Source: Rubrivivax sp.
GTDB taxonomy: Bacteria; Pseudomonadota; Gammaproteobacteria; Burkholderiales; Burkholderiaceae_C
Direction of reading: 5' to 3'
DNA: 59,952 bases
NCBI GenBank assembly: GCA_027483705.1
Contig: JAIXTY010000081.1
Coordinates: forward strand, 1 to 59,952
Positions 37,177-57,208 of this stretch are shown piece by piece (position 1 is the stretch's first letter; the number at the start of each line of letters is the position of its first letter). The notes under the pieces are model-generated. The model ran no database searches. It was not told where the DNA came from and was given only the letters and a program-made list of their open reading frames with translations. The translations under genes were made by a program, and so were the position numbers.

Positions 37177-37206
37177 GGCGGCCGACGGCCTCTCGATAAC
37201 CCTCGA

Positions 37207-37250
37207 TTGACAGTCGCGGGCCCCGCCCGCACACTGTGAAAGCGCTTTCA
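37207..37250 (+). promoter_or_regulatory. Promoter and LacI-type operator of the beta-glucan ABC/GH operon
   Basis: A perfect -35 TTGACA (37207-37212), a 17-base spacer and CACACT (37230-37235) precede the palindrome TGAAAGCGCTTTCA at 37237-37250, which would cover the transcription start. It has the central CG step favoured by LacI-family proteins. It lies 48 bases upstream of the substrate-binding-protein start. Regulation by the adjacent LacI-family protein is inferred. Confidence 0.78.
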
Positions 37251-37298
37251 TGGTGCCGGCCCGCGGGCCTGCGCTGGCTGGCGCCGCGTCCGTGCACC

Positions 37299-38591: not shown

Positions 38592-38601
38592 CGACAGGCA
38601 C

Positions 38602-39516
38602 ATGGCGATGAAGCTGCCCCCGTTCCTGCGCCTGTCGCCCGCGGCCACGCCGTACGTGCTGCTGAGCCCCTTCCTCGTGCTGTTCGCGGTGTTCGGGGTG
38701 TTCCCGCTGCTGTTCTCGCTGTGGCTCGCGTTCCAGAGCTGGGAGCCCACCAGCGGCCTGGAGGCGATGCGCTACGTGGGCGCCGAGAACTTCGCCTTCG
38801 CGCTGCAGGACGAGTGGTTCTGGAAGTCGCTGAAGAACACGGCCTGGCTGGCCCTTGTCTCGGGCGTGCCGCAGCACCTGGTGGCGATCCCGCTGGCGGT
38901 GTTCATCCACAACCGCTTCGCGCGGCTGCGCGACGCCACGATCGGGGCCTACTTCCTGCCGTACATCACCAGCACGGTGGCCATCGCCATCCTGTTTTCC
39001 AGCCTGTTCAGCACCGACTACGGCGTCGTCAACGCCGTGCTGCGCGGCCTGGCCGGCGGCGAGGCCATCGACTGGCTGGGCAACCCCGACCACATCAAGC
39101 CGGCCGTCGCCCTGGTGGTGTTCTGGCGCTACGTGGGCTTCAACGTCGTGCTGTACCTGGCGGCGCTGCAGACCATCCCGAAGGATCTCTACGAGGCCGC
39201 GACGATGGACGGCGCCTCGGCCCGGCAGCAGTTCTTCCACATCACGCTGCCGAGCCTGAGGCCGATGATCTTCTTCGGCGTCACGCTCAGCGTCATCGGC
39301 GGGCTGCAGCTCTTCGAAGAGCCGTTCATCCTGACCGGTGGCCGCGGCGGCTCCGACCAGGCGGGCATGACGACGGCGATGTACCTGTACCGCATGGCCT
39401 TCGACTTCAACGACTTCGGGGCCGCCAGCGCGATGAGCTGGCTGTTGTTCGCGCTGGTGGTGCTGCTGACCTGGCTCACCAACCGCGCCTTCCGGCCGAA
39501 GGGCGGTGCGGCGTGA
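38602..39516 (+). CDS. ABC sugar transporter permease (MalF/UgpA type)
   Basis: The 304-residue inner-membrane protein has six predicted helices, beginning YVLLSPFLVLFAVFGVFPLLFSLWLAFQSW. Its cytoplasmic EAA coupling loop reads YEAATMDGASARQQFFHITLPSLRP near 198-222, which docks on the ATPase. It starts 10 bases after the receptor gene and overlaps the second permease by four bases (GTGA). Role as one half of an oligosaccharide importer is firm; specificity is inferred from the glycoside hydrolases around it. Confidence 0.92.
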   Translation: MAMKLPPFLRLSPAATPYVLLSPFLVLFAVFGVFPLLFSLWLAFQSWEPTSGLEAMRYVGAENFAFALQDEWFWKSLKNTAWLALVSGVPQHLVAIPLAVFIHNRFARLRDATIGAYFLPYITSTVAIAILFSSLFSTDYGVVNAVLRGLAGGEAIDWLGNPDHIKPAVALVVFWRYVGFNVVLYLAALQTIPKDLYEAATMDGASARQQFFHITLPSLRPMIFFGVTLSVIGGLQLFEEPFILTGGRGGSDQAGMTTAMYLYRMAFDFNDFGAASAMSWLLFALVVLLTWLTNRAFRPKGGAA

Positions 39517-40343
39517 GCGCGGCCCCGTCTCGCATGGCCCCGTGGGCCGCCTACGCGCTGGTGGGCGCGGGCGCGCTCGTGATGCTGGCGCCGTTCTGGT
39601 TCATGTTCGTGTTCGCGACGCAGTCGCGCACCGAGATCTTCAGCGTGCCGCCGCCGGTGTGGTTCGGCGACGACTTCTTCGCCAACCTGAAGATCCTCAC
39701 CGAGCGCATCCCGTTCTGGCGCAGCCTGGGCTGGAGCCTGTACGTGGCGCTGGCCTCCACCGCGCTCACGCTGCTCTTCTGCAGCATGGGCGGCTACGCC
39801 TTCGCCTGCTTCGAGTTCCGCTTCAAGAACGCGCTGTTCGCGCTGGTGATGGGCACGATGCTGCTGCCCAGCTTCATGAACATGATCCCCACGTTCATGA
39901 TCATGGACGTGCTGGGCTGGATCGACCAGCCGCGCGCGCTGTACATCCCCGGCGCGGCCAGCGCCTTCGGCATCTTCCTGATGCGGCAGTTCGTGCTCAG
40001 CGCCGTGCCGAAAGACCTGATCGAGGCCGCCCGCATGGACGGCTGCAGCGAGCTCGGCATCTACTGGCGCATCGTGCTGCCGCTGCTGAAGCCCGCGCTC
40101 GGCACGCTGGGGCTCATCACCTTCATCGCCAGCTGGAACAACTTCATCGGGCCGCTGATCGTGATGCGCAGCCCCGAGAACTACACGTTGCCGCTGGCGC
40201 TGCGCAGCCTGCAGAGCCCCGTCGACACCGAGTGGGGCGCGCTGATGACCGGCTCGGCCATCGCCACCATCCCGCTGCTGCTGCTGTTTGCCGTCTCGTC
40301 GCGCCAGCTCATCGCCGGCCTCACCGCCGGCGCGGTGAAGTGA
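39513..40343 (+). CDS. ABC sugar transporter permease (MalG/UgpE type)
   Basis: The 276-residue second permease starts with GTG at 39513 overlapping the previous stop. It has six membrane segments (first AAYALVGAGALVMLAPFWFMFVFA) and an EAA loop IEAARMDGCSELGIYWRIVLPLLKPAL near 170-195. TFIASWNNFIGPLIV is a further MalG-type hallmark. Together with the preceding gene it forms the channel; the ATPase is encoded after the GH1 gene, an unusual separation. GH1 follows after 52 bases. Confidence 0.92.
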   Translation: MSAAPSRMAPWAAYALVGAGALVMLAPFWFMFVFATQSRTEIFSVPPPVWFGDDFFANLKILTERIPFWRSLGWSLYVALASTALTLLFCSMGGYAFACFEFRFKNALFALVMGTMLLPSFMNMIPTFMIMDVLGWIDQPRALYIPGAASAFGIFLMRQFVLSAVPKDLIEAARMDGCSELGIYWRIVLPLLKPALGTLGLITFIASWNNFIGPLIVMRSPENYTLPLALRSLQSPVDTEWGALMTGSAIATIPLLLLFAVSSRQLIAGLTAGAVK

Positions 40344-40395
40344 CACCGCCTGGCACCCCTCGTTCCTGCCTCTGTTCCTGCCCTCGTTCCCGACC

Positions 40396-41778
40396 ATGAA
40401 CTCTCCGCAACCGCTGCACCCCCGCCACCGTTTCCCGGCCGACTTCGTCTGGGGCGTGGCCACCAGCTCGTTCCAGATCGAGGGTGCCGCCCACGAAGAC
40501 GGCAAGGGCGAGTCGATCTGGGACCGCTTCTGCCGGCAGCCCGGTGCCATCGCCGACGGCTCCAACGGCGACATCGCCTGCGACCACGTGCACCGGCTGG
40601 ACGCGGACCTCGACCTGATCGCCGGCCTGGGCGTGGACGCCTACCGCTTTTCGGTGAGCTGGCCGCGCGTGCAGCCCGACGGGCAGGGCGCCTTCAACGA
40701 GGCCGGTCTGCGCTTCTACGAACGCCTGGTCGACGGCCTCATCGCCCGCGGCATCAAGCCCTACCTCACGCTCAACCACTGGGACCTGCCGCAGGCCCTG
40801 CAGGACGCCGGCGGCTGGGCCAACCGCGACACCGTGCACCGCTTCGTCGCCTACGCGCGCGCCGTGGCGCGCCGGCTGGGCAGCCGCGTGGTGGCCATCA
40901 CCACGCACAACGAGCCGTGGGTGGTGGCCGTGCTGGGGCACGAGACCGGCGTCTTCGCGCCCGGCCTGCGCGACCGCGGCATCGCCATGCAGGTGGCGCA
41001 CCACCTGCTGCTCAGCCATGGCCTGGCGCTGCAGGCCCTGCGCGCCGACGGCTGCCCGAGCCGGCTGGGCATCGTGCTGAACCTCTCGCCCATCGGCCCG
41101 GCCACCGACAGCCCCGAGGACGTGGCCGCCGCGCGGCTGGAAGACGGCCGCTCGGTGCGCTGGTACATGGACCCGCTGTTCAAGGGCGCGTACCCGGCCG
41201 ACGTCTGGCAGCACCTGGGCGGCGACGTGCCGCACATCGAGCCCGGCGACCTCGAGGCCATCGCCACGCCGATGGACTTTCTCGGCATCAACTACTACAC
41301 GCGCGGTGTCGTCAGCGCCAGCGGCGCCTGGAGCGCCCGGACGAGCGGCAAGCCGCTCACCGACATGGGCTGGGAGATCGTGCCCGAGGGCCTGACGGAG
41401 CTGCTGCTGCGCCTGCACCGCGACTGGACGCTGCCACCGCTGTACGTGAAGGAAAACGGCGCCGCGTTCCAGGACACGTTGGTGCGAGAGGGCGACGCGG
41501 ACCGCGTCCACGACGCCGAGCGCATCGATTACATCGCCAGCCACATCGCCGCCGTCGGCGACGCGATGGCGCAGGGCGTGCCGATGGCCGGCTACATGGT
41601 GTGGAGCCTGATGGACAACTTCGAGTGGGCCAGCGGCTACGTCAAGCGCTTCGGCATCGTGCACGTCGACTACGCGACGCTCGCGCGCACGCCCAAGGAC
41701 AGCTACCTCTGGTACCGCGACTTCCTGCAGGCGCAGCAGCGGGCCCGCCAGCCCGTGGCGGCCCCCGTGCAGGGCTGA
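40396..41778 (+). CDS. GH1 beta-glucosidase, cytosolic
   Basis: This retaining exo-enzyme releases glucose from beta-gluco-oligosaccharides. The 460-residue product has no signal peptide and starts RFPADFVWGVATSSFQIEGA after a short lead. The acid/base Glu173 sits in THNEPW, the nucleophile Glu353 in YVKENGA, and the substrate-binding end is MVWSLMDNFEWASGYVKRFGIVHVDY. Family length and motifs are normal. Placed between the ABC permeases and the ABC ATPase, it most likely cleaves imported laminari-oligosaccharides inside the cell. Confidence 0.95.
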   Translation: MNSPQPLHPRHRFPADFVWGVATSSFQIEGAAHEDGKGESIWDRFCRQPGAIADGSNGDIACDHVHRLDADLDLIAGLGVDAYRFSVSWPRVQPDGQGAFNEAGLRFYERLVDGLIARGIKPYLTLNHWDLPQALQDAGGWANRDTVHRFVAYARAVARRLGSRVVAITTHNEPWVVAVLGHETGVFAPGLRDRGIAMQVAHHLLLSHGLALQALRADGCPSRLGIVLNLSPIGPATDSPEDVAAARLEDGRSVRWYMDPLFKGAYPADVWQHLGGDVPHIEPGDLEAIATPMDFLGINYYTRGVVSASGAWSARTSGKPLTDMGWEIVPEGLTELLLRLHRDWTLPPLYVKENGAAFQDTLVREGDADRVHDAERIDYIASHIAAVGDAMAQGVPMAGYMVWSLMDNFEWASGYVKRFGIVHVDYATLARTPKDSYLWYRDFLQAQQRARQPVAAPVQG

Positions 41779-41783
41779 AGGCC

Positions 41784-42842
<1,059 letters not shown>

Positions 42843-42873
42843 TCCCGCCAACCCCACACCCACCGATCGCAAC

Positions 42874-43791
42874 ATGCAAGAACCCCAACGCCCCGGCTGG
42901 ACGCTCGTCTGGCACGACGAGTTCGACGGCGACGCCGTCGACCGCACGAAGTGGGACTTCGACCTCGGCAATGGCTTCTACGACTACAAGAACCACGCCT
43001 GGGTGCCGGGCTGGGGCAACGAGGAACTGCAGTACTACACGGCCGAGCCCGAGAACGTGCAGGTGCGCGACAGCTGCCTCTTCATCCGCGCCGTGAAGGC
43101 GCCGCTGCACGGCTGCGGCTACACCTCGGCGCGTCTCAAGACCAAGGCGCGCGACGGCCGCGTGCTGTTCGGAAAGCAGTACGGCCGCGTCGAGTTCCGC
43201 GCCCGCGTGCCCTGGGGCAAGGGGCTGTGGCCGGCGCTGTGGATGCTGCCCGTGGAAGACAAGTACGGCGGCTGGGCCGCCAGCGGCGAGATCGACCTGA
43301 TGGAGATCGTCGGCGAGAAGCCCGAGGAGGTGCTCAACAGCATCCACTTCGGCTCCACCTACCCGCGCCGCTCGCTGATCACCAAGACCCACCCGCTGCC
43401 CGGCGGCAGCCTGGTGTCGGACTGGCACCTGTACGCGGTGGAGTGGGAGCCGGGCGAGATCCGCTTCTTCGTCGACGAGGTGCAGACCTGCACCTACCGC
43501 CACTGGTGGAGCTGCAGCCGGCTCGAGAACGGGCAGGGCACCGAGGCCGCGTCGGAGGCCGACCTGAACCCCTGGCCCGCGCCCTTCGACCAGCCGTTCT
43601 ACCTGGTGATGAACGTGGCCGTCGGCGGCAACTTCCCCGGCGTGCCCAATGACGCCACGCGCTTTCCGGCCGAGCTGGTGGTGGACTACGTGCGCGTGTA
43701 CGACAAGGTCGGCGGTTATGGCCCCGTGCCGCCGCGCGGCGAGGGCGTGATGCCCTGGGAGCCGGGCCACGTGTCCGAGCGCCGCACCTGA
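42874..43791 (+). CDS. GH16 beta-1,3-glucanase-like enzyme without signal peptide
   Basis: The 305-residue enzyme starts MQEPQRPGWTLVWHDEFDGDAVDRTKW, a direct entry into the GH16 beta-jelly-roll with no export signal. The catalytic signature GEIDLMEIVGE gives nucleophile Glu139, assisting Asp141 and acid/base Glu144. It has YTSARLKTK, KGLWPALWMLP and FYLVMNVAVGGNFPG, all typical of the laminarinase branch. Without a signal it would act in the cytosol, unusual for an endo-glucanase, presumably on imported longer oligosaccharides. It lies between the ABC ATPase and a GH17 gene. Confidence 0.92.
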   Translation: MQEPQRPGWTLVWHDEFDGDAVDRTKWDFDLGNGFYDYKNHAWVPGWGNEELQYYTAEPENVQVRDSCLFIRAVKAPLHGCGYTSARLKTKARDGRVLFGKQYGRVEFRARVPWGKGLWPALWMLPVEDKYGGWAASGEIDLMEIVGEKPEEVLNSIHFGSTYPRRSLITKTHPLPGGSLVSDWHLYAVEWEPGEIRFFVDEVQTCTYRHWWSCSRLENGQGTEAASEADLNPWPAPFDQPFYLVMNVAVGGNFPGVPNDATRFPAELVVDYVRVYDKVGGYGPVPPRGEGVMPWEPGHVSERRT

Positions 43792-43825: not shown

Positions 43826-44854
43826 ATGAGCTCGAAACCCTCCGACATCACCCGGCCCGCGGGCCATGGGGGCTCGCAAGCCTGGGCGCCGGCCTTTGCA
43901 TCGGCCTTCGCATCGGCCTTCGCCACGGGCAGTGCCGCGCACGGCGGCGCCGTCGGCAGCGGTGGTGTCGCGCTGCCGGGCACAGCCCCGGCCGCGCCCA
44001 TGCCGCCGCCGCTGCCGCCCGCCGAGCGCGCCCGCCTCGACGAGGCCTTCCGCGCCACCCTGGCCCGCGGCATCCACGGCCTGTGCTTCAGCCCCTACCT
44101 CGAGGGCCAGGAGCCGGGCTCGCAGATCGGCGAAGCGCAGATCCGCGAGCGGCTGGCCATCGTGCGGCCGCACACGCGCTGGGTGCGCAGCTTCTCGTGC
44201 ACCGACGGCCACGAGCAGACGCCCCGCGTGGCCAAGGCCCTGGGCCTGAAGACGCTGGTGGGTGCCTGGCTGGGCATCGACCACGAGATCAACGCGCGCG
44301 AGATCGCCGGCGCCATCGCCGTGGCGCGCGCCGGGCACGCCGACGTCGTGGCCGTGGGCAACGAGGTGCTGCTGCGCGGCGACCTCACCGAAGACGAGCT
44401 CATCGCCCACATCGAGGCCGTCCGCCAGGCGCTGCCGGGTGTGCCCGTGGGCTATGTCGACGCCTACTTCCTGTTCGAGAAGCACCCGCGTGTCACGGCC
44501 GCCTGCGACGTGGTCATGACCAACTGCTACCCCTTCTGGGAAGGCTGCCCGCGCGAGCAGGCGCTGCCCTACATGCAGACCATGCTGGCGCGCACCCGCG
44601 CCGCCGCGCCGGGCAAGCGCATCCTCATCAGCGAGACCGGCTGGCCCGACCAGGGCAGCGCGTTCCACGGCGCCGTGCCCGGCACCGAGGCGGCGATGCA
44701 GTACTTCGTGGACACGGCGGCCTGGGCCGAGGCCGAGGGCATCGAGTGGTTCCACTTCGCCGCCTTCGACGAGGCCTGGAAGGTGGGGGCTGAAGGCGAC
44801 GTCGGCGCCTACTGGGGCCTGTGGGACAAGGATGCCCGCCTCAAGTTCGGCTGA
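43826..44854 (+). CDS. GH17-like beta-1,3-glucan hydrolase, probably cytosolic
   Basis: The 342-residue protein has a disordered Ala/Gly/Pro-rich N-terminus of about 70 residues, containing a tandem 4-residue repeat (ASAF x2-3), then a GH17-type TIM barrel from about residue 80 (GIHGLCFSPYLEGQEPGSQIG; HTRWVRSFSCTDGHEQTP; GLKTLVGAWLGIDHE). The acid/base is Glu180 in AVGNEVLLR, the nucleophile is Glu270 in ISETGWP, and WFHFAAFDEAWK closes the barrel. It has no hydrophobic signal. The barrel is a close relative of the C-terminal domain of the symporter fusion 1.5 kb downstream. Exo- or transglycosylase activity cannot be excluded. Confidence 0.87.
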   Translation: MSSKPSDITRPAGHGGSQAWAPAFASAFASAFATGSAAHGGAVGSGGVALPGTAPAAPMPPPLPPAERARLDEAFRATLARGIHGLCFSPYLEGQEPGSQIGEAQIRERLAIVRPHTRWVRSFSCTDGHEQTPRVAKALGLKTLVGAWLGIDHEINAREIAGAIAVARAGHADVVAVGNEVLLRGDLTEDELIAHIEAVRQALPGVPVGYVDAYFLFEKHPRVTAACDVVMTNCYPFWEGCPREQALPYMQTMLARTRAAAPGKRILISETGWPDQGSAFHGAVPGTEAAMQYFVDTAAWAEAEGIEWFHFAAFDEAWKVGAEGDVGAYWGLWDKDARLKFG

Positions 44855-44864
44855 GCCTGCGCCC

Positions 44865-45818
44865 ATGCACTCGACACCGCTGCTGCCCACGGGCAACGCC
44901 ATCTGCTACTCGGGCTATCGCGAGGGGCAGAGCCCGGCCACGCGCGTGTTCCCCTCGGTGGCCCAGATCCGCGAGGACCTGCACCTGCTGGCCCGCCACT
45001 GGCAGCTGCTGCGCCTGTACGACTGCAGCGTGCACGCCGAGCGGGTGCTGCAGGTCATCGAGGAAGACGGCCTGCCGCTGCGCGTGATGCTGGGCGCCTA
45101 CCTCGGCGCCGAGCTCAGCAACCCGGGCTGCCCCTGGGGCGGCGTGTACACCGAGCCGCAGCTCGCCGCCAACCGCCGCGAGAACGACGCCGAGCTGCGG
45201 CGCCTGGTGGCGCTGGCCCTGCGCCACCGCGACACGGTGTTCAGCGTCGCCGTGGGCAACGAGGCCACCGTGGACTGGACCGACCACCTCGTGCCGGTGC
45301 CGCGGATGATCGAGTGCGTGCGCTGGGTGAAGGCGCGTGTGCCGCAGCCGGTGACCTTCTGCGAGAACTACGTGCCCTGGCAGGACAGGCTCGCCCCGCT
45401 GGTGCCCGAGCTGGACTTCATCTCGGTGCACACCTACCCGGTGTGGGAGCACAAGCCCATCCACGAGGCGCTGGACTACACCCAGGACAACGTCGCCAGC
45501 GTGGCCCGGCGCTACCCGGGCACGCCGGTGGTCATCACCGAGGCCGGCTGGTGCACGCGCAGCAACGGGCGCGGCATGCGTGCCGAACACGCGGTGCAGG
45601 CGCTGCAGGCCGCGTACGTGCGCGAGCTGATGGACTGGACCCGGGCCGAAGGCCTGCTGTGCTTCGTCTTCGAGGCCTTCGACGAACCCTGGAAGGGCTC
45701 CGACGACCCGCTCGAGCCCGAGAAGCACTGGGGGCTGTTCACCGTCGACCGGCGTCCCAAGCTGGCCGTGGCCGACCTCTACGCCGACCTTCTGGCCGCC
45801 GCCGGAGCCCACGCATGA
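44865..45818 (+). CDS. GH17-like protein, second copy, cytosolic
   Basis: The 317-residue protein is a signal-less GH17-type barrel: AICYSGYREGQSPATRVFPSVAQIREDL, RLYDCSVHAERVLQVIEE, LGAYLGAELSNPGCPWGG, acid/base Glu133 in AVGNEATVDW, nucleophile Glu226 in VITEAGWC, and FVFEAFDEPWKG. It is more distant from its upstream neighbour than that neighbour is from the symporter-fused domain, and resembles the barrel of the leftward lipoprotein enzyme (GNEALVEW, GETGW). Its last bases overlap the next gene (ATGA). A beta-1,3-glucosidase or glucanase role is inferred. Confidence 0.85.
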   Translation: MHSTPLLPTGNAICYSGYREGQSPATRVFPSVAQIREDLHLLARHWQLLRLYDCSVHAERVLQVIEEDGLPLRVMLGAYLGAELSNPGCPWGGVYTEPQLAANRRENDAELRRLVALALRHRDTVFSVAVGNEATVDWTDHLVPVPRMIECVRWVKARVPQPVTFCENYVPWQDRLAPLVPELDFISVHTYPVWEHKPIHEALDYTQDNVASVARRYPGTPVVITEAGWCTRSNGRGMRAEHAVQALQAAYVRELMDWTRAEGLLCFVFEAFDEPWKGSDDPLEPEKHWGLFTVDRRPKLAVADLYADLLAAAGAHA

Positions 45819-46243
45819 ACACACCGTCGATGCACACCCATCGCACACCCGATGTCGCGCTGTGGGACCAGTACCGTGCGCTGCGCGAGCAGTGGACGCA
45901 CGAGGACAACCTCGTCAACCACCGCGTGAGCTGGCTCATCCTTTCGGGCGGCCTGCTGTTCACCGCCTACCGCGCCGAGGCGGCGAGCAGCGGCAACTGG
46001 CTGGCGCTGGCCTTTCCGCTGTTCGGCATGCTGGTCGCGGCGCTCATCGGCGTGGCCATCCATGCCGCACTGGCGGCGGCCGACGACGTGCGGCGCGAGT
46101 TCGAGCGCGCCGGCCTGGCCGATCTGGCGCCACTGGCGCCGGCCAGCCGCCTGGCGCGGCGCGGCCGCTGGGCCGCGAAGGCACTGCCCTTCGTCTTCGG
46201 TGCGATGTGGCTGCTGGCGCTGCTGGGCAGCCTGCGCAGCTGA
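45815..46243 (+). CDS. Small inner-membrane protein of the glucan operon, unknown function
   Basis: The 142-residue protein has a charged N-terminus (about 40 residues, QYRALREQWTHEDNLVNHR), two hydrophobic segments (VSWLILSGGLLFTAY near 43-57 and WLALAFPLFGMLVAALIGVAIHAAL near 64-88), a cytosolic or periplasmic charged loop (ADDVRREFERAGLADL), and a C-terminal segment (ALPFVFGAMWLLALLGSL). I do not recognise the family. It is translationally coupled to the GH17 gene before it and sits just ahead of the symporter-GH17 fusion, so a helper role in uptake is conceivable but unproven. Confidence 0.75.
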   Translation: MNTPSMHTHRTPDVALWDQYRALREQWTHEDNLVNHRVSWLILSGGLLFTAYRAEAASSGNWLALAFPLFGMLVAALIGVAIHAALAAADDVRREFERAGLADLAPLAPASRLARRGRWAAKALPFVFGAMWLLALLGSLRS

Positions 46244-46260: not shown

Positions 46261-46288
46261 GACACGAATCACAAGAAGCAGGAGACCC

Positions 46289-48676
46289 ATGAACACCACC
46301 GCAGTACCGGCGAGCACCCCCCACGGCGCCCACAAGGTGCCCTTCGGCCACAAGGTCGCCTTCGGGCTGGGCATGCTGGCCAACCAGATGTTCCCGGCGG
46401 CGCTGGGCATCTTCATGGTCGTGCTCGTGCAGGACATGGGCTTCCCGACGTGGATGTGGGGCATCCTGTTCTTCCTGCCGCGGGCCTACGACGCGGTGCT
46501 CGACCCCATCATGGGCTTCATCTCCGACAACACGCGCTCGCGCTGGGGCCGGCGGCGGCAGTACGTGTTCATCGGCGCCATCATGCTGGGCGTGGGCTTC
46601 GTGGCCATGTGGCAGCTCTACCGCGACGACGGGGTGACCTACAACTTCCTGTACTTCCTGTTCTGGTCGCTGGTGTTCTTCACCGGGCTCACGGTGTTCA
46701 GCATCCCGTACGTGGCCATGGGCTACGAGATGAGCGACGACTTCCACGAGCGCACCAGCATCATGGCCGTGGCGCAGTGGATCGGGCAGTGGGCCTGGGT
46801 CATCGCGCCGTGGTTCTGGGTCGTGATGTACGACCCGAGCTGGTTCCCCAACGCCGACACCGCCACGCGCACGCTGTCGGTGTGGGTGGGCGTGGCCTGC
46901 ATGCTGCTGGCCATGGTGCCGGCGGTCTTCCTGCCGAGCCGCTCGACGCTGGACGACACGCACCTGGTGCCGCTGACCATCGCCAACATCGGCCGCGGCT
47001 TCAAGGAGCTGATGGAGGGCTTCAAGGAGGCCTTCGCCTGCGTGCCCTTCCGCAAGCTGTGCTTCGCCACCTTCCTGATCTTCAACGCCTTCAACACGGT
47101 GGCGGCGTTCTCGTTCTTCATCGTCGTCTACCACCTGTTCAACGGCAACACGGCCGCGGCCGGCATCTGGCCCACGCTCTTCGGCAGCATTGGCGCGCTG
47201 GTCACCACCTTCGCCGTCATCCCCACGGTGGCGTGGATGTCGCGCCGCATGGGCAAGAAGCTGGCCTTCATGGTGTCGCAGGGCATCTCGCTGCTGGGCT
47301 ACGTTCTGCTGTACCTGCTGATGGTGCCGGGCAAGCCGTGGATGTTCATGCTGGCGCTGCCGTTCTTCAGCTTCGGCATCGGCGGCCTGTTCACGCTGAT
47401 GATGAGCATGACGGCCGATGTGTGCGACCTCGACGAGCTCGCCACCGGCAAACGCCGCGAGGGCATCTTCGGCGCCATCTACTGGTGGATGGTGAAGCTG
47501 GGCTTCGCGGTGGCGGGCCTGCTCAGCGGCGCCATCATGGCCTTCGTGGCCTTCACGCCCGGCGCGCCGGTGCAGCCCGAGGGCGCGGTGGACGGCCTGC
47601 GCCTGTTCTACAGCGGCGTGCCCATCGCCGGCACGCTGCTGGCGATGTGGATCATGCGCAGCTACGACCTCGACGAGAAGCGCGCACTGGAGGTGCACGC
47701 CGAACTCGAGCGCCGCAAGCAGCGCACGGCGCCTGACGCCTCGCAGGGCTCGGGCGCGCGCCCCTGGCTGGCCGAGCACGGGCTGCTGCTGCCGGGCGCC
47801 GAGGCGTCGGCGCTGGCTGGCCGCAGCGCGCACGAGGTGCGCGAACTGGCCGGCGAGCAGCTCGCGGCCGGCCTGTACGGCCTGTGCTTCAGCGCCTACC
47901 CGGCGGGCCAGCAGGCCGGCGACGAGCTGCGGGCCGCCGACCTCACGCGGCGCATCGACCTGATCGCGCCGCACACGCGCTGGGTGCGCTCGTTCGCGTG
48001 CACCGAGGGCCACGAGGCCATCCCGCGCCTGGCGCGCACCCAGGGCCTGAAGACGATGGTCGGCGCCTGGATCAGCGCCGACCGGGCGCGCAACGAGCGC
48101 GAGATCGCCTCGCTCGTGCGCCTGGGGCAGGACGGCTTCGTCGACATCGCCGTGGTGGGCAACGAGGTGCTGCTGCGGGGCGAGCTCACCGAGGCCGAGC
48201 TGCTGGACTACCTGCGCCTGGTGCGCCAGGCGCTGCCCGAGACGGTGCGCGTGGCCTGCGTCGACGCCTACTTCCAGTTCCTCGAGCGGCCGGCCCTCAC
48301 CGCGGCCTGCGACGTGGTGCTGCCCAACTGCTACCCGTTCTGGGAAGGCGCGCCCGTCGAGCGCGCGGCGCAGTACCTGCGGCGCATGCACGCCCTGGTC
48401 AAGGCCGCGGCCGGCGAGGACAAGCCCGTCATCGTGGCCGAGACCGGCTGGCCCAGCGGCGGCGAGCCGGTCGGCGCGGCCGTGCCCTCGGCCGACCACG
48501 CGATGCGCTATTTCGCCGAGGTGCAGCAGTGGGCCCGGCGCGAGGGCGTCAAGCTCTTCTGGTTCTCGAGCTTCGACGAGCCCTGGAAGCGCCCGCAGGA
48601 GGGCGAGCTGGGCACGCGCTGGGGTCTATGGGACCAGAACGAGCGGCCCAAGTACGGCCCGGGCGGCACGGCATGA
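46289..48676 (+). CDS. GPH-family sugar:cation symporter fused to a C-terminal GH17 domain
   Basis: This 795-residue protein joins two complete modules. Residues about 20-465 form a 12-helix glycoside-pentoside-hexuronide:cation symporter (KVAFGLGMLANQMFP; FFLPRAYDAVLDPIMGFISDNTRSRWGRRRQY; SIPYVAMGYEMSDDFHERTSI; ADVCDLDELATGKRREGIFGAIYWWMVKLG). After a charged linker (EVHAELERRKQR) and about 30 low-complexity residues, a GH17 barrel occupies about 500-790, with acid/base Glu626 in VVGNEVLLRG and nucleophile Glu718 in VAETGWPSGG, ending WFSSFDEPWKR. GPH proteins keep both ends in the cytosol, so the hydrolase should face inward. The reading frame is continuous across the junction, with no stop or frameshift. 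Import coupled to cleavage of beta-1,3-gluco-oligosaccharides is the inferred role. Confidence 0.9.
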   Translation: MNTTAVPASTPHGAHKVPFGHKVAFGLGMLANQMFPAALGIFMVVLVQDMGFPTWMWGILFFLPRAYDAVLDPIMGFISDNTRSRWGRRRQYVFIGAIMLGVGFVAMWQLYRDDGVTYNFLYFLFWSLVFFTGLTVFSIPYVAMGYEMSDDFHERTSIMAVAQWIGQWAWVIAPWFWVVMYDPSWFPNADTATRTLSVWVGVACMLLAMVPAVFLPSRSTLDDTHLVPLTIANIGRGFKELMEGFKEAFACVPFRKLCFATFLIFNAFNTVAAFSFFIVVYHLFNGNTAAAGIWPTLFGSIGALVTTFAVIPTVAWMSRRMGKKLAFMVSQGISLLGYVLLYLLMVPGKPWMFMLALPFFSFGIGGLFTLMMSMTADVCDLDELATGKRREGIFGAIYWWMVKLGFAVAGLLSGAIMAFVAFTPGAPVQPEGAVDGLRLFYSGVPIAGTLLAMWIMRSYDLDEKRALEVHAELERRKQRTAPDASQGSGARPWLAEHGLLLPGAEASALAGRSAHEVRELAGEQLAAGLYGLCFSAYPAGQQAGDELRAADLTRRIDLIAPHTRWVRSFACTEGHEAIPRLARTQGLKTMVGAWISADRARNEREIASLVRLGQDGFVDIAVVGNEVLLRGELTEAELLDYLRLVRQALPETVRVACVDAYFQFLERPALTAACDVVLPNCYPFWEGAPVERAAQYLRRMHALVKAAAGEDKPVIVAETGWPSGGEPVGAAVPSADHAMRYFAEVQQWARREGVKLFWFSSFDEPWKRPQEGELGTRWGLWDQNERPKYGPGGTA

Positions 48677-49605
48677 ACGGCCGCGGCGCGGCCCTGCTGG
48701 CGATGCTGCTGGGCGTGTTGACGCAGGCCGGCTGCGGCGGCGGCGGGGGCGGTGGCGACACCACGCCCGCGGTGCCCAGCCCGCCGCCGGCGCCCGCCCC
48801 GCCGGTGGCCGGGCCGCCCGCTGCACCGCCCCCGGCACCGTCGCCGCCGCCCCCGACCAGTGCCGGGCCGGCCCCGGCCGGCTACGTGCTGGTGTGGGCC
48901 GACGAGTTCGACATCCCGGGCCTGCCCGACGCCGCGCGCTGGGGCTACGACACCGAGCGCAACCGCCTGGGCTGGTGGAACGCCGAGCGCCAGTACTACG
49001 CCGCGGCGCGCTTCCAGAACAGCGTCGTCGAGGCGGGCAGGCTGCGCATCACCGCGCGGCGCGAGGCGCTGTCGTCGCTGCCGGACTGGGGCGGCCAGGC
49101 CTACAGCTCGGCGCGGCTGATCACGCGCGGCAAGGCCTCGTGGACCTACGGCTTCTTCGAGATCCGCGCGAAGATGCCCTGCGGCACGGGCACCTGGCCG
49201 GCGATCTGGATGCTGGGCACCGGTGGCGTGTGGCCCGATGACGGCGAGATCGACATCCTCGAACACGTGGGCCGCAACCCGGGCGAGATCCTCGGCACCG
49301 TGCACACGCCCATCACCGGCGGCAGCGGCAACGGCTCGCGCACGGCGCTGCCCTCGGCATGCACGGCGTTCAACGACTACCAGCTGCTGTGGACGGCCGA
49401 CGAGATCGCCATCGGCGTGAACGGCAGCGTCTACCACCGCTACCGCAACCCGCGCACCGGCCGCGCGGCCTGGCCCTTCGACGCGCCGCAGTACCTGCTG
49501 CTGAACATCGCCATCGGCGGCACGCTGGGCGGCGCGGTGGACGACAGCATCTTCCCGCGCACGATGGAGATCGAGCACGTGCGGGTGTGGCAACCCGCGC
49601 GCTGA
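48673..49605 (+). CDS. GH16 endo-beta-1,3-glucanase lipoprotein
   Basis: The 310-residue enzyme has a lipoprotein signal (LLGVLTQAGC, lipidated Cys near residue 20) followed by a Gly run and a 45-residue Pro/Ala linker, then a GH16 domain from about residue 72 (GYVLVWADEFDIPGLPDAARW). Catalysis: nucleophile Glu192, Asp194 and Glu197 in GEIDILEHVG. WPAIWMLG and LLLNIAIGGTLGG are laminarinase-type. It starts overlapping the symporter-fusion stop (ATGA) and closes the operon. Anchored in the outer membrane, it would cut laminarin at the surface or in the periplasm, the counterpart of the signal-less GH16 upstream. Confidence 0.93.
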   Translation: MNGRGAALLAMLLGVLTQAGCGGGGGGGDTTPAVPSPPPAPAPPVAGPPAAPPPAPSPPPPTSAGPAPAGYVLVWADEFDIPGLPDAARWGYDTERNRLGWWNAERQYYAAARFQNSVVEAGRLRITARREALSSLPDWGGQAYSSARLITRGKASWTYGFFEIRAKMPCGTGTWPAIWMLGTGGVWPDDGEIDILEHVGRNPGEILGTVHTPITGGSGNGSRTALPSACTAFNDYQLLWTADEIAIGVNGSVYHRYRNPRTGRAAWPFDAPQYLLLNIAIGGTLGGAVDDSIFPRTMEIEHVRVWQPAR

Positions 49606-49619
49606 CCGTCCCGGCAGGC

Positions 49620-50039
49620 TCAGCGCTGGCCGATGCGGCTGCCGTTGCCGACCAGCTCCTCCACCCGCTGCAGCACGAAGGCGCCCGTGGCGGCATAGAG
49701 GTCGAACTCCGGGTGCTGCAGGCGCACCATCGCGTCGCCGTCGTCGGGCAGCACCACGTGCGCCATCGACCAGCCCGGGTAGCGCCGCGCGGCGATCTCG
49801 CCGAACGACAGCAGCTGCACGTCGTGGTGCCGCGGGTCGCGCGCGATGCGGGCATACAGCGCGTTCACCGCGCCGCGCTCGCCCTCCAGCACCTGCACGT
49901 ACAGCCCCTGGCCCTGGCAGAGCACGCCGGTGATGCCGTGCGCGGCGTTGTGCGCCTCGCACTCGGCAAGGATCTGCGCGGTGACGGTGCCGGTCTGCGG
50001 CCCGACCGAACGGCTGACGTACAGGGCTCTCACCAGCAT
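49620..50039 (-). CDS. Short BLUF blue-light photoreceptor
   Basis: The 139-residue protein is a stand-alone BLUF (FAD-binding blue-light sensor) domain with a short C-terminal cap. All photocycle residues are in register with the classical proteins: Tyr7 (LVRALYVS), Asn31 (EAHNAAHGITGVL), Gln49 (GLYVQVLEG), Trp90 and Met92 (GWSMAH). There is no fused output domain, so signalling would go through a partner protein. It lies 98 bases downstream of GH30 in the same orientation, with a hairpin in between, so it may be in the porin operon or have its own promoter. The link to glucan use is positional only. Confidence 0.92.
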   Translation of the reverse strand: MLVRALYVSRSVGPQTGTVTAQILAECEAHNAAHGITGVLCQGQGLYVQVLEGERGAVNALYARIARDPRHHDVQLLSFGEIAARRYPGWSMAHVVLPDDGDAMVRLQHPEFDLYAATGAFVLQRVEELVGNGSRIGQR

Positions 50040-50137: not shown

Positions 50138-51526
50138 TCAGGCCCCGGCGGTCGCCGCCCGCCGGAAGGTGGCGATGGCGTGCGCGGGCAGGTCGGCCGG
50201 GTACGCGGCGCCGTCGATGGCCAGCGAAAACGCGATGTCGTGCTCGCTGCGGTTGAGCACCACCACCGCCGTGCTGCCGTCGGGGTTGGCGAAGGCCGTG
50301 CACTCCAGCGCCTCGCGCGTGGCCGCGCACAGCACGCGCCGGGCGCCGGGCTGGATGTACCGCGCGAAGTGGCCCAGCGCCGCGTACGAGCTCTGCGGGT
50401 GCAGGCCGTCCTCGGCCGGCACGGCCAGGAAGGGCGCGCTGCAGAAGTTGCCCACGTGGTTGGGGCCGCCCTGTTCGTCGAGCAGCAGGTTCCAGTCGAT
50501 CCAGCCCACCGTCCAGCGGTTGAGGTCGTTGATGATCGATCGCGCGTAGCGTTCGGCCAGCTCCCAGCGGCCCCAGTGCGGGCCGCCTTCCTGGCAGCCC
50601 TCGGTGAACAGCAGCTGCTTGTCGGGCCAGGCGTCGTGCACCAGCTGCACGTGCTCGAAGTGGTCTTCCACGTACCAATGGAAGCCGGTGCCCCACACGT
50701 ACTTCGCGGCCTCGGCGTCGCCGTAGATGACGCTGGCGCGCTCGACCATCGCGTCGCGGTTGTGGTCCCACACGACGATGCGCACGTGGCCCAGGCCGGC
50801 GGCGTGCAGCGCCGGGCCGAGGTCGTCGCGCACGAAGTCGCGTTCTTCCTCCGCGGTGTACAGGCAGGAGTCCCAGCGCTGGCGCGCCTCGGGCTCGTTC
50901 TGCACCGACACGCCCCACACCGGCACACCCTCGGCCTCGTAGGCGCGGATGAAGCGCACGAAGCATTGCGCCCAGGCGGCGCGGCACTCGGGCCGCAGCC
51001 GGCCGCCGTCGTTCATGCGGCCGCTGTCCTTCATCCAGGCCGGCGGGCTCCAGGGCGAGACCAGCAGCTGCAGCGGGCGGCCGGCCACGCGCTGCGCGGC
51101 CTGGATCATCGGCAGCAGCGCCTGGCGGTCGCGCTCGATGCTGAAGCTCTCGAGCGCGTGGTCGCCGTCGCGCTCGACGTGCGCGTAGTTGCCGAGCGCG
51201 AAGTCGCAGCTGTTCATGTGCACGCGGCACAGCGTGTAGCCGTGGCCCTGCCGCGGGTCGAAGCAGGCCTGCAGGAAGGCCTCGCGCTGCGCCGGCGAGA
51301 GCTTCAGCCAGGTGCTGGCCGCCGCCTCGGTGAAGGCGCCGCCGAAGCCCTCGAGCGCCTGGAAGCGCCGCGAGGTGTCCACCCACAGCCGCGCCGGCGC
51401 CCGGGCGTGCGCGCCGGCGTCGGCCTCGGGCCGCAGCGGTGGCTGCGGTGCCAGGCGCGGGGCGGGGCCGTGGCGCTCGTCGCGGGCGCTGAGCACCCAG
51501 TCCAGCGCGTCGGGCTCGGGCGTCAT
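50138..51526 (-). CDS. GH30 glucanase (beta-1,6-glucanase/glucosylceramidase type), no signal peptide
   Basis: The 462-residue enzyme has a GH30 barrel with FQALEGFGGAFTEAAA near residue 55, SPWSPPAWMKDSGRMNDGG near 160, acid/base Glu211 in SVQNEPEA, nucleophile Glu309 in LFTEGCQE, WIDWNLLLDEQGGPNHVGN, and the C-terminal beta-domain (FARYIQPGARRVLCA ... STAVVVLNRSEHDIAFSL). GH30 members in glucan loci cleave beta-1,6 links, matching laminarin side branches. There is no signal peptide, so the cytosol is the predicted site. Its ATG overlaps the stop of the upstream lipoprotein gene by four bases. Confidence 0.92.
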   Translation of the reverse strand: MTPEPDALDWVLSARDERHGPAPRLAPQPPLRPEADAGAHARAPARLWVDTSRRFQALEGFGGAFTEAAASTWLKLSPAQREAFLQACFDPRQGHGYTLCRVHMNSCDFALGNYAHVERDGDHALESFSIERDRQALLPMIQAAQRVAGRPLQLLVSPWSPPAWMKDSGRMNDGGRLRPECRAAWAQCFVRFIRAYEAEGVPVWGVSVQNEPEARQRWDSCLYTAEEERDFVRDDLGPALHAAGLGHVRIVVWDHNRDAMVERASVIYGDAEAAKYVWGTGFHWYVEDHFEHVQLVHDAWPDKQLLFTEGCQEGGPHWGRWELAERYARSIINDLNRWTVGWIDWNLLLDEQGGPNHVGNFCSAPFLAVPAEDGLHPQSSYAALGHFARYIQPGARRVLCAATREALECTAFANPDGSTAVVVLNRSEHDIAFSLAIDGAAYPADLPAHAIATFRRAATAGA

Positions 51527-53280
51527 CGCGACCAGTGCAGCCCGTCGATGCGCAGCAGCGGCAGCCCGGTCAGGTTCTGCGGCTTGCCGGTGAAGCTGTA
51601 GCGGTCGGCGACGATGAAGCGGAAGTTCACGTAGCGCAGGTCCAGCTTCGGGTTGGCCGCCACGAAGGCCGAGACAGGGATCGACACCGAGCACCAGCTG
51701 TTGGTGTTGCAGTAGCCGTACTCGCCCGGGGCGATCTGCAGGAAGGCCTCCTGCACGTCGCGGTCCTCGGTGTCGGTGCTGATGCCGACCTCGATCTTGC
51801 CCGGGTAGCCGTCGCTGCGCACCAGGAAGTTGATTCGGCCGGTGGCGAAGTTGCTCAGGTTGGCCAGCACGCCGCTGCCGGAGTACTGGAACAGGCCCCA
51901 GCCGTAGTCGACCGGGTTGGGCGTGATCTCGAAGTGCGCGCCGCCGTCGGGCGAAGCTGCGCCGACCGTGGCCTCGCGGTAGCCGGTGCTGGCGAACGGG
52001 TCCCAGCGCAGGCCGGTGGCGCGTTCCTCGCCCGCGGTCACGGTGTCGGCGAACAGCGTGTATCGCGAGGCCGACACCGGCGCGGCCAGCGTCGGCGGCA
52101 CCCACTTCACCGCGTCGGCGGCGGTGTAGCTGCCGGCCTCGCAGGCCCAGGTCACGCCGCAGGTGCCCAGCGACTGCACCGTGTAGCGCGCCTCGCGGCG
52201 GGCGTTGAACAGGCCCCAGCCGTCGTCGCCCTGCTTCCAGGGTTCGTCGAAGGCCTGGAACACGAAGATGGCCTTCGGGCCCTGCGTGTCGCGCCGGCCT
52301 TCCTGCGCCCAGGTCTGCAGCGCGTCGAAGTACATCTTCTGGTTCACCGGGTGGGCGCGGAAGGCGAGGTTCGGGCCGCCGGCGGTATCGACCGCAGCCC
52401 AGCCCGTTTCGCCGATCACCATCGGCATCGTGCCGAGGTTGAACTTCACGAGGCCGGCACGCGCGCGCTCGAACTGCGACTTGGCCTCGGCCAGCGTGGC
52501 GTCCATCATGGCCTTGGCGCGCTGCGCCTCGGGCGCGCCCTTCTGCCGCCAGTCGTAGGCCGTGGGGTTGTAGAAGGTGTCGAGGAAGGGGTAGACGTGC
52601 ACCGCGGCGAAGTCGACCGTCTCGGCGATCACCCGGTCCACCTTGGACCACATCAGCCAGTTGTCGTTGGTGGTGACGGGCTGCGTGACCGCGGCGCGCA
52701 CCTTGCGGATGTAGGCCGCCAGGACGGGCGGCTCCATGCGGTGGCCGGACCATTCCACCAGCGCCTCGTTGCCGACACTCACGGCGACGACGATGTCGCG
52801 GTAGGCGTTGGCCAGGCGGATCTGCGCATCGAGGTCGGCCTGGTTGGCAGCCTCGACGGCCGGCGACACCGGCGGCACCATGTAGGAGCCGAGCTGAACC
52901 TTCAGGTCCAGGCTGTTGTCGCGGATGACCTGCAGAACCGTCTCGGAGAAGATCCTGCTGGTGAACAGGCGGATCGTGCCGATGCCGGTGGCCTGGATAA
53001 GGCGCAGGTCCTGCAGCACGTTGGCCGGTGTGATGACCTCGCTGTCCAGGTCGGCCGGGCTGCGCGACGTGCGGTAGGGCGAGTAGTTGATGGCGGCGCG
53101 CGTCATCAGGCTCTGCGGCAGTGCGCGGCGGTCAGTCTGCGAGACGGCGCTGGGCGTGTAGCCGCCGCTGTCGTCGCCACCGCAGCCGGTCGCGCCGAGC
53201 AGGGCGGTCAGGGCCACGCCGGCAGCCAGTGCCAACCGCGTGAACGAACGGATGCGACCTTGCGGGAGTCGGGTGTTCAT
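51523..53280 (-). CDS. GH17-type lipoprotein with C-terminal beta-sandwich domain
   Basis: The 585-residue protein has a lipoprotein signal (LTALLGATGC, lipidated Cys about residue 33), then a GH17-like barrel at about 60-390 with INYSPYRTSRSPADL, acid/base Glu172 in SVGNEALVEW, nucleophile Glu291 in VIGETGWAAV and FVFQAFDEPWKQGDDGWGLF. Residues about 405-585 form a beta-rich accessory domain (YTLFADTV ... VDYGWGLFQYSGSGVL ... IEVGISTDTEDRDVQEAFLQI ... LDLRYVNFRFIVADRY) that resembles C-terminal galactose-binding-like domains seen on some beta-glucosidases. It is encoded between the porin and GH30 and would act in the periplasm or at the surface. Confidence 0.88.
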   Translation of the reverse strand: MNTRLPQGRIRSFTRLALAAGVALTALLGATGCGGDDSGGYTPSAVSQTDRRALPQSLMTRAAINYSPYRTSRSPADLDSEVITPANVLQDLRLIQATGIGTIRLFTSRIFSETVLQVIRDNSLDLKVQLGSYMVPPVSPAVEAANQADLDAQIRLANAYRDIVVAVSVGNEALVEWSGHRMEPPVLAAYIRKVRAAVTQPVTTNDNWLMWSKVDRVIAETVDFAAVHVYPFLDTFYNPTAYDWRQKGAPEAQRAKAMMDATLAEAKSQFERARAGLVKFNLGTMPMVIGETGWAAVDTAGGPNLAFRAHPVNQKMYFDALQTWAQEGRRDTQGPKAIFVFQAFDEPWKQGDDGWGLFNARREARYTVQSLGTCGVTWACEAGSYTAADAVKWVPPTLAAPVSASRYTLFADTVTAGEERATGLRWDPFASTGYREATVGAASPDGGAHFEITPNPVDYGWGLFQYSGSGVLANLSNFATGRINFLVRSDGYPGKIEVGISTDTEDRDVQEAFLQIAPGEYGYCNTNSWCSVSIPVSAFVAANPKLDLRYVNFRFIVADRYSFTGKPQNLTGLPLLRIDGLHWSR

Positions 53281-54916: not shown

Positions 54917-57208
54917 ATGAACCTGTTCCGCCGCACCGTAATCGGTCTGATGCCCTGGGTGGCCGCCTGCTGCGTGGCCCTGCCGCCGGCGATGGCACAG
55001 GGCGACCGCCTGGCCTTCGGCGCCGGCCGCGTGAGCCTCAAGCCCCGTGGCAACGACGCCGCGGTGCCGCGCGCGCCCTTCCGCACCGAGGCGATGCTGC
55101 AGCGCGCGGCGCCCACGAACCAGTGGTACTCGTCGCTGATCTTCAGCGAGAAGCCCGAGAACATCTACGCCCAGCCGCTGAGCTTCCGCCCCATGCCCGG
55201 CGGGCTGGAGGTGGCGCTGCCCACGAAGGCCGTGGTGCCCACCGAGCGCCGCGACGTCGAGATCCACTACGCCCACCGCAACGCCATCACCATCGCGCCG
55301 GTGGCCTTCGAGCCCGGCCGCGCGCTGCTGGCCGGCAGCAGCGACTGGGCCATCGACATCACCATGGGCCGCGGCGCCGACCGCTTCGAGGCCACCGTCG
55401 CCCACGGCAGCCCGTATGCCTGGTTCCGCGTCGGCCGCGGCGACCTGCGCGTGCGCCTGCCGGCGGCCGGCGAGCGGGTGGCCACGGCCGACCCGCGCAT
55501 GCTGGTGCTGCGCCTCGGCGGCGTGGCGTACGCGCTGTTCGGGCCCACCGGCGTGCAGTGGGAGGCCGCGTCGGCCACCGAGTGGCTGGCGCGCCTGCCG
55601 GCCGGCAAGGGCTTCCTGGTGGCCAGCGCGCTGCCCGACGACAGCGCCGCCACGCAGGCGCTGCTGCTCAAGCACGCCTATGCCGCCGTCGTCGACACAC
55701 GCGTGGACTGGAAGGTCGACCGCGCCACCGGCGAGGTGCAGACCAGCTTCACCGCCACCACGCAGCCGCTGGAAGGCAGCGAGACGACGCCGCTGCTGGG
55801 CCTGTACCCGCACCACTGGTTCCGCAACGCCAGCCTCGACGGCCGCCTGGGCCCGGCCTACGACACCGTGCGCGGCAAGGTGCGGCTGCTGGCGGCCAGC
55901 AGCTTCCGCACCAGCGCGCGCTACACGGGCTTCGTGCCCTTCTGGCCCGCCGTCGCCGAGGGCACGCCGCGCCTGGCCGAACTGCGCGACGTGATGAAGA
56001 GCGACATCCGCAACGCGCGCCGCATGCTGCTGGTCGAGGGCGAGGGCCCATACTGGCAGGGCAAGGGCCTGCTGCGCCTGGTGAAGATGCTCGATGTCTA
56101 CGAGCAGCAGGGCGACAAGGACGGCAGCGCACGCCTGCTGGAGCTGCTGAAGACCCGCGTCGAGGAGTGGTTCTCGGGCAACGACCGCCGCCGCTACTTC
56201 CACTACGACCGCGCCATGGGCACGGTGGTCGCCTACCCGGAAGAGTACTTCTCGGTGGTGCAGATGAACGACCACCACTTCCACTACGGCTACTGGATCC
56301 GCGCGATGGCTGAGATCGCGCTTCGAGACCCGGCCTGGGCCGCGCGCGGCCGCTGGGGCGACATGGTCGACCTGCTGGTCAAGGACATCGCGTTCGCCGA
56401 ACGCGGCAAGGCCGAGTTCCCGTTCCTGCGCAACTTCGACCCGTACGAGGGCCACAGCTGGGCCTCGGGCATCGGCCTGGGCGAGCACGGCAACAACCAG
56501 GAGTCGTCGAGCGAGGCGCTCAACGCCTGGACCGGCCTCATCCTCTGGGGCGAGCTGCAGGGCGACACGGCGCTGCGCGACATGGGGATCTGGCTGCTCG
56601 TCACCGAGACCGAGGCCGTCAAGCACTATTGGTTCGATCTCTACGGCCAGGTCTTCGCGCCCGAGTACAAGAACGTCGACGTCAGCATGGTGTTCGGCGC
56701 CAAGTACGCGCACAACACCTGGTGGATCGACGATCCGCGGCAGATCACCGGCATCAACCTGCTGCCGATGACGACCGTCTCGACCTACTTCGCCAGCCAC
56801 CCCGAGTACATCCGCAGGAACCTCGCGTCGCTGAAGGACGAGCAGAAGATCTGGGCCGACCGCGGCAAGAAGGTCGATCCGCCCGACATCTGGCAGGACG
56901 TCTTCGCCAAGTACCTGGCGCTGGCCGACCCGGCCGCCGCGCTGGCCGCCTGGGACCGCTGGGGCGCCGTCGAGCTGGGCGACAGCCGCACGCACACGCT
57001 GCACTTCCTGCTGAGCCTGGCCGAACTCGGCGCGCCCGACACCAGCGTCACCGCCGACACCACGCTGTACCAGGTGTTCAAGCGGCCCGATGGCCGCCGC
57101 AGCTACCTGGCCTTCAACGCCGGCAAGGCGCCGATCACCGTGCGCTTCTCCGACGGCCGCCAGCTCACCGTGCCGCCGGGCCAGCTGGCCCGCGCCGGCA
57201 CGCCCTGA
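54917..57208 (+). CDS. GH81 endo-beta-1,3-glucanase, secreted
   Basis: The 763-residue enzyme has a signal peptide (RRTVIGLMPWVAACCVALPPAMAQ, cleavage near residue 28) and a GH81 domain filling the rest: PTNQWYSSLIFSEKPENIYAQPLSFR near 60-90, the (alpha/alpha)6 catalytic part with MNDHHFHYGYWIRA near 450, GHSWASGIG near 515, and the family motif with Glu529 and Glu533 in NNQESSSEALNAW. GH81 enzymes are inverting endo-laminarinases that start attack on long beta-1,3-glucan. It ends with a beta extension (YLAFNAGKAPITVRF). Its operator and divergent porin link it to the regulon. Confidence 0.94.
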   Translation: MNLFRRTVIGLMPWVAACCVALPPAMAQGDRLAFGAGRVSLKPRGNDAAVPRAPFRTEAMLQRAAPTNQWYSSLIFSEKPENIYAQPLSFRPMPGGLEVALPTKAVVPTERRDVEIHYAHRNAITIAPVAFEPGRALLAGSSDWAIDITMGRGADRFEATVAHGSPYAWFRVGRGDLRVRLPAAGERVATADPRMLVLRLGGVAYALFGPTGVQWEAASATEWLARLPAGKGFLVASALPDDSAATQALLLKHAYAAVVDTRVDWKVDRATGEVQTSFTATTQPLEGSETTPLLGLYPHHWFRNASLDGRLGPAYDTVRGKVRLLAASSFRTSARYTGFVPFWPAVAEGTPRLAELRDVMKSDIRNARRMLLVEGEGPYWQGKGLLRLVKMLDVYEQQGDKDGSARLLELLKTRVEEWFSGNDRRRYFHYDRAMGTVVAYPEEYFSVVQMNDHHFHYGYWIRAMAEIALRDPAWAARGRWGDMVDLLVKDIAFAERGKAEFPFLRNFDPYEGHSWASGIGLGEHGNNQESSSEALNAWTGLILWGELQGDTALRDMGIWLLVTETEAVKHYWFDLYGQVFAPEYKNVDVSMVFGAKYAHNTWWIDDPRQITGINLLPMTTVSTYFASHPEYIRRNLASLKDEQKIWADRGKKVDPPDIWQDVFAKYLALADPAAALAAWDRWGAVELGDSRTHTLHFLLSLAELGAPDTSVTADTTLYQVFKRPDGRRSYLAFNAGKAPITVRFSDGRQLTVPPGQLARAGTP

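Follow-up and report, generated by a model that had tools for sequence, protein, structure and literature searches.

The closest described counterpart of the protein reported here is FORMB_24740 (AOR29491.1) of Formosa sp. Hel1_33_131, in which, according to excerpts of Unfried et al. 2018 (PubMed Central, PMC6246565), an N-terminal 12-helix major facilitator superfamily (MFS) domain is followed by a C-terminal glycoside hydrolase family 17 (GH17) domain, FbGH17B. The same excerpts describe FbGH17B as cloned, purified and assayed: acting as an exo-hydrolase, it cleaved debranched laminarin and broke oligosaccharides down to glucose, with a GH30 acting as the debranching beta-1,6-glucosidase of the pathway. 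A benefit of the tether was proposed there, with no test of it reported in the excerpts, and the two-domain nature of FbGH17B is confirmed in parts of PMC11005184 and PMC13188888. Here we describe a transporter-GH17 fusion gene in Rubrivivax sp. (order Burkholderiales; assembly GCA_027483705.1), located on contig JAIXTY010000081.1, of which the whole stretch of 59,952 nucleotides (nt) was analysed and is referred to below as the window. Its product is predicted, with a probability of about 0.72, to be an inner-membrane, probably cation-coupled importer of the MelB type carrying a C-terminally tethered cytosolic GH17, within a laminarin/beta-1,3-glucan cluster. The fusion architecture is real and conserved, yet of an already published kind: a preliminary description of this DNA, made from its letters alone, had stated that no characterised example was known, which the 2018 assays of FbGH17B contradict (PMC6246565, in part). 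What the analysis adds is the cross-phylum history of the gene, a correction to the idea that it arose by duplication, and a second, apparently independent fusion.

The two systems have in common the order of the parts, transporter first and GH17 second in one open reading frame (ORF), and a laminarin-type locus that also holds a GH30 and another GH17, in Formosa an endo-acting one. They differ in host, Formosa as against Burkholderiales, and in the window the GH30 and the lipoprotein-like GH17 differ in order and strand from the five Bacteroidota loci used for comparison. A fusion from a Formosa metagenome-assembled genome (L080), taken as a stand-in for AOR29491.1, shares 59% identity with the window protein, and its locus repeats the order GH17, GH30, fusion of FORMB_24720-24730-24740. 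Excerpts of PMC11005184 and PMC13188888 further describe MlGH17B, a cytosolic GH17 transglycosylase of Muricauda lutaonensis that has 53% identity with the GH17 domain of FbGH17B. As in the window, a GH17 similar to FbGH17B lies there near an MFS transporter gene; MlGH17B is, however, free-standing (295 amino acids, aa), and by its description the arrangement is nearer to the first free-standing GH17 neighbour of the fusion (Table 1), which is probably of the MlGH17B type judging from the parts of PMC11005184 consulted.

Among better-known transporters, MelB (4m64, 7l16) and MFSD2A share the fold and the cation-site residues of the transporter part, but lack an enzyme domain and differ from it in their sugar-site residues. 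LacS of Streptococcus thermophilus, a symporter of the same superfamily, carries a C-terminal cytosolic IIA domain in one chain. That domain is regulatory and not a hydrolase, whereas the C-terminal domain of the window protein is a GH17, and no phosphotransferase system domain was found in the latter by Pfam at E 0.001. Few transporter-enzyme fusions in sugar uptake were found in the open-licence PMC literature, and no mention of a Burkholderiales fusion or of the second fusion type; the portions of PMC6298971 and PMC11345257 covered discuss GH17 in laminarin loci and do not mention a fusion.

Architecture of the fusion protein

Both parts of the protein were recognised by sequence and structure searches. 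The Pfam model MFS_2 (PF13347) matched residues 25-463 (E 2.4e-63; 214.6 bits against a cut-off of 27), and Glyco_hydro_17 (PF00332) matched residues 698-789 (42.2 bits against 28.2), the C-terminal third of the domain alone. Phmmer aligned solved MelB with residues 21-484 and the GH17 beta-1,3-glucanosyltransferase 4wtp with residues 506-785, and Foldseek returned MFSD2A and MelB for the transporter part and 4wtr/4wtp for the GH17 part. An AlphaFold2 model that took 61 homologous fusions as input (mean predicted local distance difference test, pLDDT, 87.3) contains twelve membrane-length helices at residues 19-456, eight barrel strands and a weak linker segment at 481-488; its predicted template modelling score (pTM) of 0.61 makes the placement of one domain relative to the other unreliable. 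No signal peptide was apparent in the protein when read by eye.

GH17 enzymes belong to clan GH-A, in which the catalytic glutamates lie at strands 4 and 7. In the model, Glu626 directly follows the strand at 620-623 and Glu718 lies within the strand at 716-719; we take them to be the acid/base and the nucleophile, respectively. Both are invariant in 17/17 Burkholderiales fusions and in all 61 rows of a wider alignment of fusions (A3), and activity of the window GH17 domain on beta-1,3-glucan is the likely prediction. In the transporter part, Asp68, Asp72 and Lys403 align with MelB positions 55, 59 and 377, presumably its cation site, and are invariant across the same 61 rows.

The topology of the protein was assessed from the charges of its loops. 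With helices taken from the model and the termini excluded, lysine and arginine residues number 16 in the inner loops against 2 in the outer ones, and the inner excess recurs in 61/61 sequences. In the MelB fold both termini are cytosolic, and this, together with the charge bias, places the GH17 in the cytosol. The alternative arrangement, a periplasmic GH17 that cuts oligosaccharides before uptake while the transporter imports glucose, conflicts with both lines of evidence. It finds some encouragement in the discussion of the 2018 paper, whose excerpts assign two enzymes of the cascade to a likely periplasmic location, FbGH17B not being named (PMC6246565), and we regard it as very improbable. 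The preliminary description is thereby borne out in its account of an in-frame transporter-GH17 fusion, of a full GH17 barrel with Glu626 and Glu718, and of a cytosolic C-terminus. It had also called the first part a 12-helix transporter of the glycoside-pentoside-hexuronide (GPH) type; the twelve helices stand, but the GPH model of NCBI, TIGR00792, scored 171.3 bits, under its cut-off of 231.35 although aligned over 1-437 of 437 positions, and the part is therefore named MFS_2/MelB-type.

Conservation and origin of the fused gene

The window has a GC content of 72%, and a 906-aa ORF runs antisense over most of the fusion gene. Since such conditions render ORF length worthless as evidence, conservation was used instead. 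Of 81 genomes from the genus, 21 gave full-length matches to the window-type fusion (class A, the second fusion type being class B); 17 of these matches were aligned and four (G823, G827, G833 and G836) classed by score and coverage only. In another sample class A was full-length in 17 of 100 genomes, all 17 among the 60 belonging to the window's genus. Scans at the level of order and phylum, with two candidates scored per genome and neither draw listing another genome of the window's genus, found the fusion in the window's own genome only (1/399, or 1/398 among the matches listed). Among 80 loci, the best-matching ones out of 568 relatives found with a fused query and hence a set biased towards fused forms, some of them cut by contig ends, both domains share a single ORF in 18/18 Burkholderiales and 59/62 Bacteroidota/Balneolota cases. 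The median GC content of these 62 loci is 39%, so that their open frames are not explained by GC-rich DNA.

Furthermore, the ratio of non-synonymous to synonymous substitution (dN/dS) in seven pairs, hand-picked among 17 sequences, was 0.11-0.19 for the transporter, 0.14-0.46 for the linker (7/7) and 0.08-0.31 for the GH17 part. The linker is thus under purifying selection and translated in frame. Spurious long ORFs are frequent at high GC, and an assembly or stop-codon artefact by which two genes are misread as one might be suspected on that ground; against the 21 full-length matches in the genus, the 59 single ORFs in Bacteroidota/Balneolota and a linker dN/dS below 0.5, the chance of this is negligible. 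A chance ORF in GC-rich DNA is ruled out by the same conservation across the genus and the 39%-GC loci and by the linker dN/dS.

To place the fusion among its relatives, trees of 88 GH17 and 59 transporter rows were used, the rows being picked by group after near-identical sequences, recognised by shared 8-mers, had been dropped (226 to 214 and 128 to 112 sequences, respectively); two copies of the window (L001 and L111) were excluded. The transporter tree contains very long branches (L131, L130, L126, L125, L028 and L118), and only its short-branch parts are considered. In the GH17 tree the fusion domains of Burkholderiales come together as a single clade (100/100) that lies within the Bacteroidota fusion domains, beside L048-L050 and L060 (90/88). 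The free-standing Burkholderiales GH17s group instead with free-standing gammaproteobacterial ones (97/90), and those of the Bacteroidota make up a third group (93/89). In the transporter tree the Burkholderiales clade (100/100) joins Saprospiraceae/Lewinella fusions (100/96), inside a clade of fused forms (99/92). In gammaproteobacterial relatives, transporter and GH17 are separate genes.

This nesting in both domain trees suggests that the fused gene most likely arose in or near the Bacteroidota and passed to the Burkholderiales as an intact unit, a single time as far as the sampled rows show. Two features speak against such a history: the fusion clade as a whole is weakly supported in the GH17 tree (80/84, with 90/88 for the link to Saprospiria-like fusions), and L060 adjoins the Burkholderiales in that tree and lies elsewhere in the transporter tree. 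The preliminary description had instead proposed a local duplication of a closely similar GH17 gene upstream. A free-standing GH17 does lie upstream, but it is only about 50% identical to the fused domain and a distant GH17 (27%) intervenes. Its affinities are with free-standing proteobacterial GH17s and those of the fused domain with Bacteroidota fusions, and a tree constrained to unite the fusion GH17s of Burkholderiales with their free-type GH17s, class B among the latter, in a single clade is worse by 36.3 log-likelihood units, with a p-value of 0.022 in the approximately unbiased (AU) test. The duplication origin is rejected on this evidence, which is not overwhelming.

A second fusion type in the genus

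Four of the 81 genus genomes (G015, G025, G055 and G837) encode a different MFS_2-like transporter and a GH17 in one ORF. The transporter of these second-type fusions is 25-26% identical to that of the window, and their GH17 is 71-77% identical to the window's first free-standing GH17. The three included in the trees (that of G837 was found later) have GH17s inside the Burkholderiales free-standing clade (100/99) and transporters far from class A. One origin for both fusion types would place all fused GH17s in a single clade, and this topology is rejected (AU p = 2.9e-7). Related second-type transporters are unfused in G831 and G057, and that of G052 is cut by a contig end.

In all four second-type linkers there is an ATG that lies 57-76 residues ahead of the barrel and is preceded, at a distance of 5-6 nt, by GGAG or GAGG. 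Such motifs precede 5 of the 110 in-frame internal ATGs in the four second-type ORFs, the four linker ATGs included, and 6 of 320 in ten class A ORFs; in the class A linkers scanned (ten of 17, the window's included) no start codon with a motif resembling a Shine-Dalgarno sequence was found. The second-type linkers thus look as if they had kept the remnant expected of a lost upstream stop codon, and translation may still begin at their internal ATG. Several fusions and later splitting are both possible: the three second-type GH17s included in the tree are interspersed with free-standing relatives instead of making up a single clade, and the transporter of G057, which is unfused, branches from within fused ones. 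We consider it an even bet that an MFS_2-type importer and a cytosolic GH17 were joined at least twice, the second time by loss of a stop codon with the GH17 keeping its own start. If so, one message could yield both membrane-tethered and soluble GH17 in the second-type fusions, and repeated invention at like loci would mean that the tether itself is under selection.

Glucan cluster and proposed function

The fusion gene lies in a cluster with GH16, GH17, GH81, GH30 and GH1 genes (Table 1), which supports a reading in terms of glucan utilisation, and many of these genes reappear around the fusion in the compared Burkholderiales loci. The small ORF directly 5' of the fusion has a 58% identical relative in L022. 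A porin-like ORF without a Pfam match follows the lipoprotein-like GH17 gene, on the strand opposite to the fusion. A link to light sensing through the BLUF ORF was considered; the ORF was unmatched at 1e-10 in 30 related loci, several of which end early, and it is treated as unrelated. In a Kordia locus (L065:10416-12221), two free-standing GH17 genes were observed 3' of the fusion.

Table 1. Positions of the fusion gene, its parts and neighbouring genes in the window, and of related genes at other loci.
Feature	Position	Strand	Remarks
LacI regulator, ATP-binding cassette (ABC) sugar importer genes, GH1, ABC ATPase, GH16 without apparent signal	36109-43791	+	Pfam
Second permease	39506-40343		Within ABC importer genes; named by position, no Pfam match
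Free-standing GH17	43826-44854	+	No signal peptide by eye
Second free-standing GH17, distant	44832-45818	+	No signal peptide by eye
142-aa ORF, membrane-like by eye	45815-46243	+	No Pfam match
AGGAG, ribosome-binding-site-like	46280-46284	+	4 nt 5' of fusion ATG; sequence
Transporter-GH17 fusion gene	46289-48676	+	Single stop-free frame, 795 aa plus stop
12-helix MelB/MFS_2 transporter part, residues 1-478	46289-47722	+	Membrane helices within 19-456; Pfam, model, Foldseek, MelB alignment
Asp68 and Asp72	46490-46504	+	MelB alignment
Lys403	47495-47497		MelB alignment
Linker, residues 479-523, about 45 aa	47723-47857	+	Low pLDDT, linker dN/dS
GH17 (beta/alpha)8 barrel, residues 524-795	47858-48673	+	Pfam, Phmmer, model, Foldseek
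Glu626, predicted acid/base	48164-48166	+	Just past strand 4; alignment, model
Glu718, predicted nucleophile	48440-48442	+	Strand 7; alignment, model
GH16, lipoprotein-like signal by eye	48673-49605	+	Start overlaps fusion stop by 4 nt
BLUF blue-light sensor domain ORF	49620-50039	-
GH30	50138-51526	-
GH17, lipoprotein-like signal by eye	51523-53280	-
GH81-type gene	54917-57208	+
679-aa protein, repeated segments by eye	57343-59382	+	Sub-threshold CBM_4_9 match; cluster end
Class A transporters ending at linker	L024:7419-8846, L025:8758-10191, L026:9726-11150
Second-type fusions	L021:4104-6539, L022:6271-8796, L023:8178-10637, L133:4750-7164

In the function proposed here, GH16, GH17, GH81 and GH30 enzymes, presumably secreted, would release short beta-1,3-gluco-oligosaccharides, and the transporter part would import these laminari-oligosaccharides, probably coupled to a cation. 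The tethered GH17 would meet them at the inner mouth of the importer and cleave them, presumably by exo-hydrolysis, and the tether might confer a kinetic benefit.

The reaction is not readable from the sequence, given that the transglycosylase MlGH17B is so similar to the GH17 of FbGH17B. The tethered GH17 might thus act mainly as a beta-1,3-glucanosyltransferase, rebuilding imported oligosaccharides and retaining them intracellularly instead of setting glucose free, as the best solved relative, the transferase 4wtp/4wtr, and MlGH17B, a transglycosylase without a signal peptide (PMC11005184, in part), would suggest. We consider this unlikely, since the fused homologue FbGH17B is reported in excerpts as a glucose-yielding exo-hydrolase (PMC6246565) and no storage gene was seen in the annotated parts of the cluster.

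Besides this similarity to a transglycosylase, several observations weigh against an importer-coupled hydrolase. MelB positions 19 and 124, whose aspartates we take to be sugar-site residues, pair with Gln33 and Ser138 in the alignment, so that the cation site looks retained and the sugar site altered relative to MelB. The neighbouring ABC importer could be the main route for oligosaccharides. Moreover, the tether is missing in some genomes. In three of the 81 genus genomes (G006, G019 and G030) the class A transporter stops where the linker begins, with no GH17 ORF of at least 200 aa following it on its strand and separate GH17 genes nearby; these transporters are nested among fused forms in the transporter tree, which makes domain loss the simplest reading. 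Likewise, transporter and GH17 are separate and adjacent in 3 of the 62 Bacteroidota/Balneolota loci (L096, L108 and L109), whose GH17s group with free-standing ones, so that the fused domain seems to have been lost rather than split off.

Such cases imply that the tether is dispensable. Together with the free GH17 genes beside the fusion in many loci and the low confidence of the linker in the model, they lend some weight to a tether without catalytic benefit, by which transporter and GH17 would simply be co-produced at a fixed ratio and substrate could arrive by any route, the ABC importer included. That possibility is tentative and, in our judgement, on the doubtful side: the fusion is retained in 77 of the 80 loci of the biased set, with purifying selection acting on it, and similar parts seem to have been joined a second time independently. 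Wide retention and apparent re-invention argue that the tether, if dispensable, is useful.

The results extend the transporter-GH17 kind of protein past marine Flavobacteriia to Burkholderiales, Saprospiria-like, Cyclobacteriaceae and Balneolota genomes, and point to transfer of the fused gene across phyla. The three genus genomes with a transporter lacking the fused GH17 and the four with a separate fusion amount to natural experiments: with fused, unfused and re-fused versions within one genus, the benefit of tethering the enzyme to its importer becomes directly testable.

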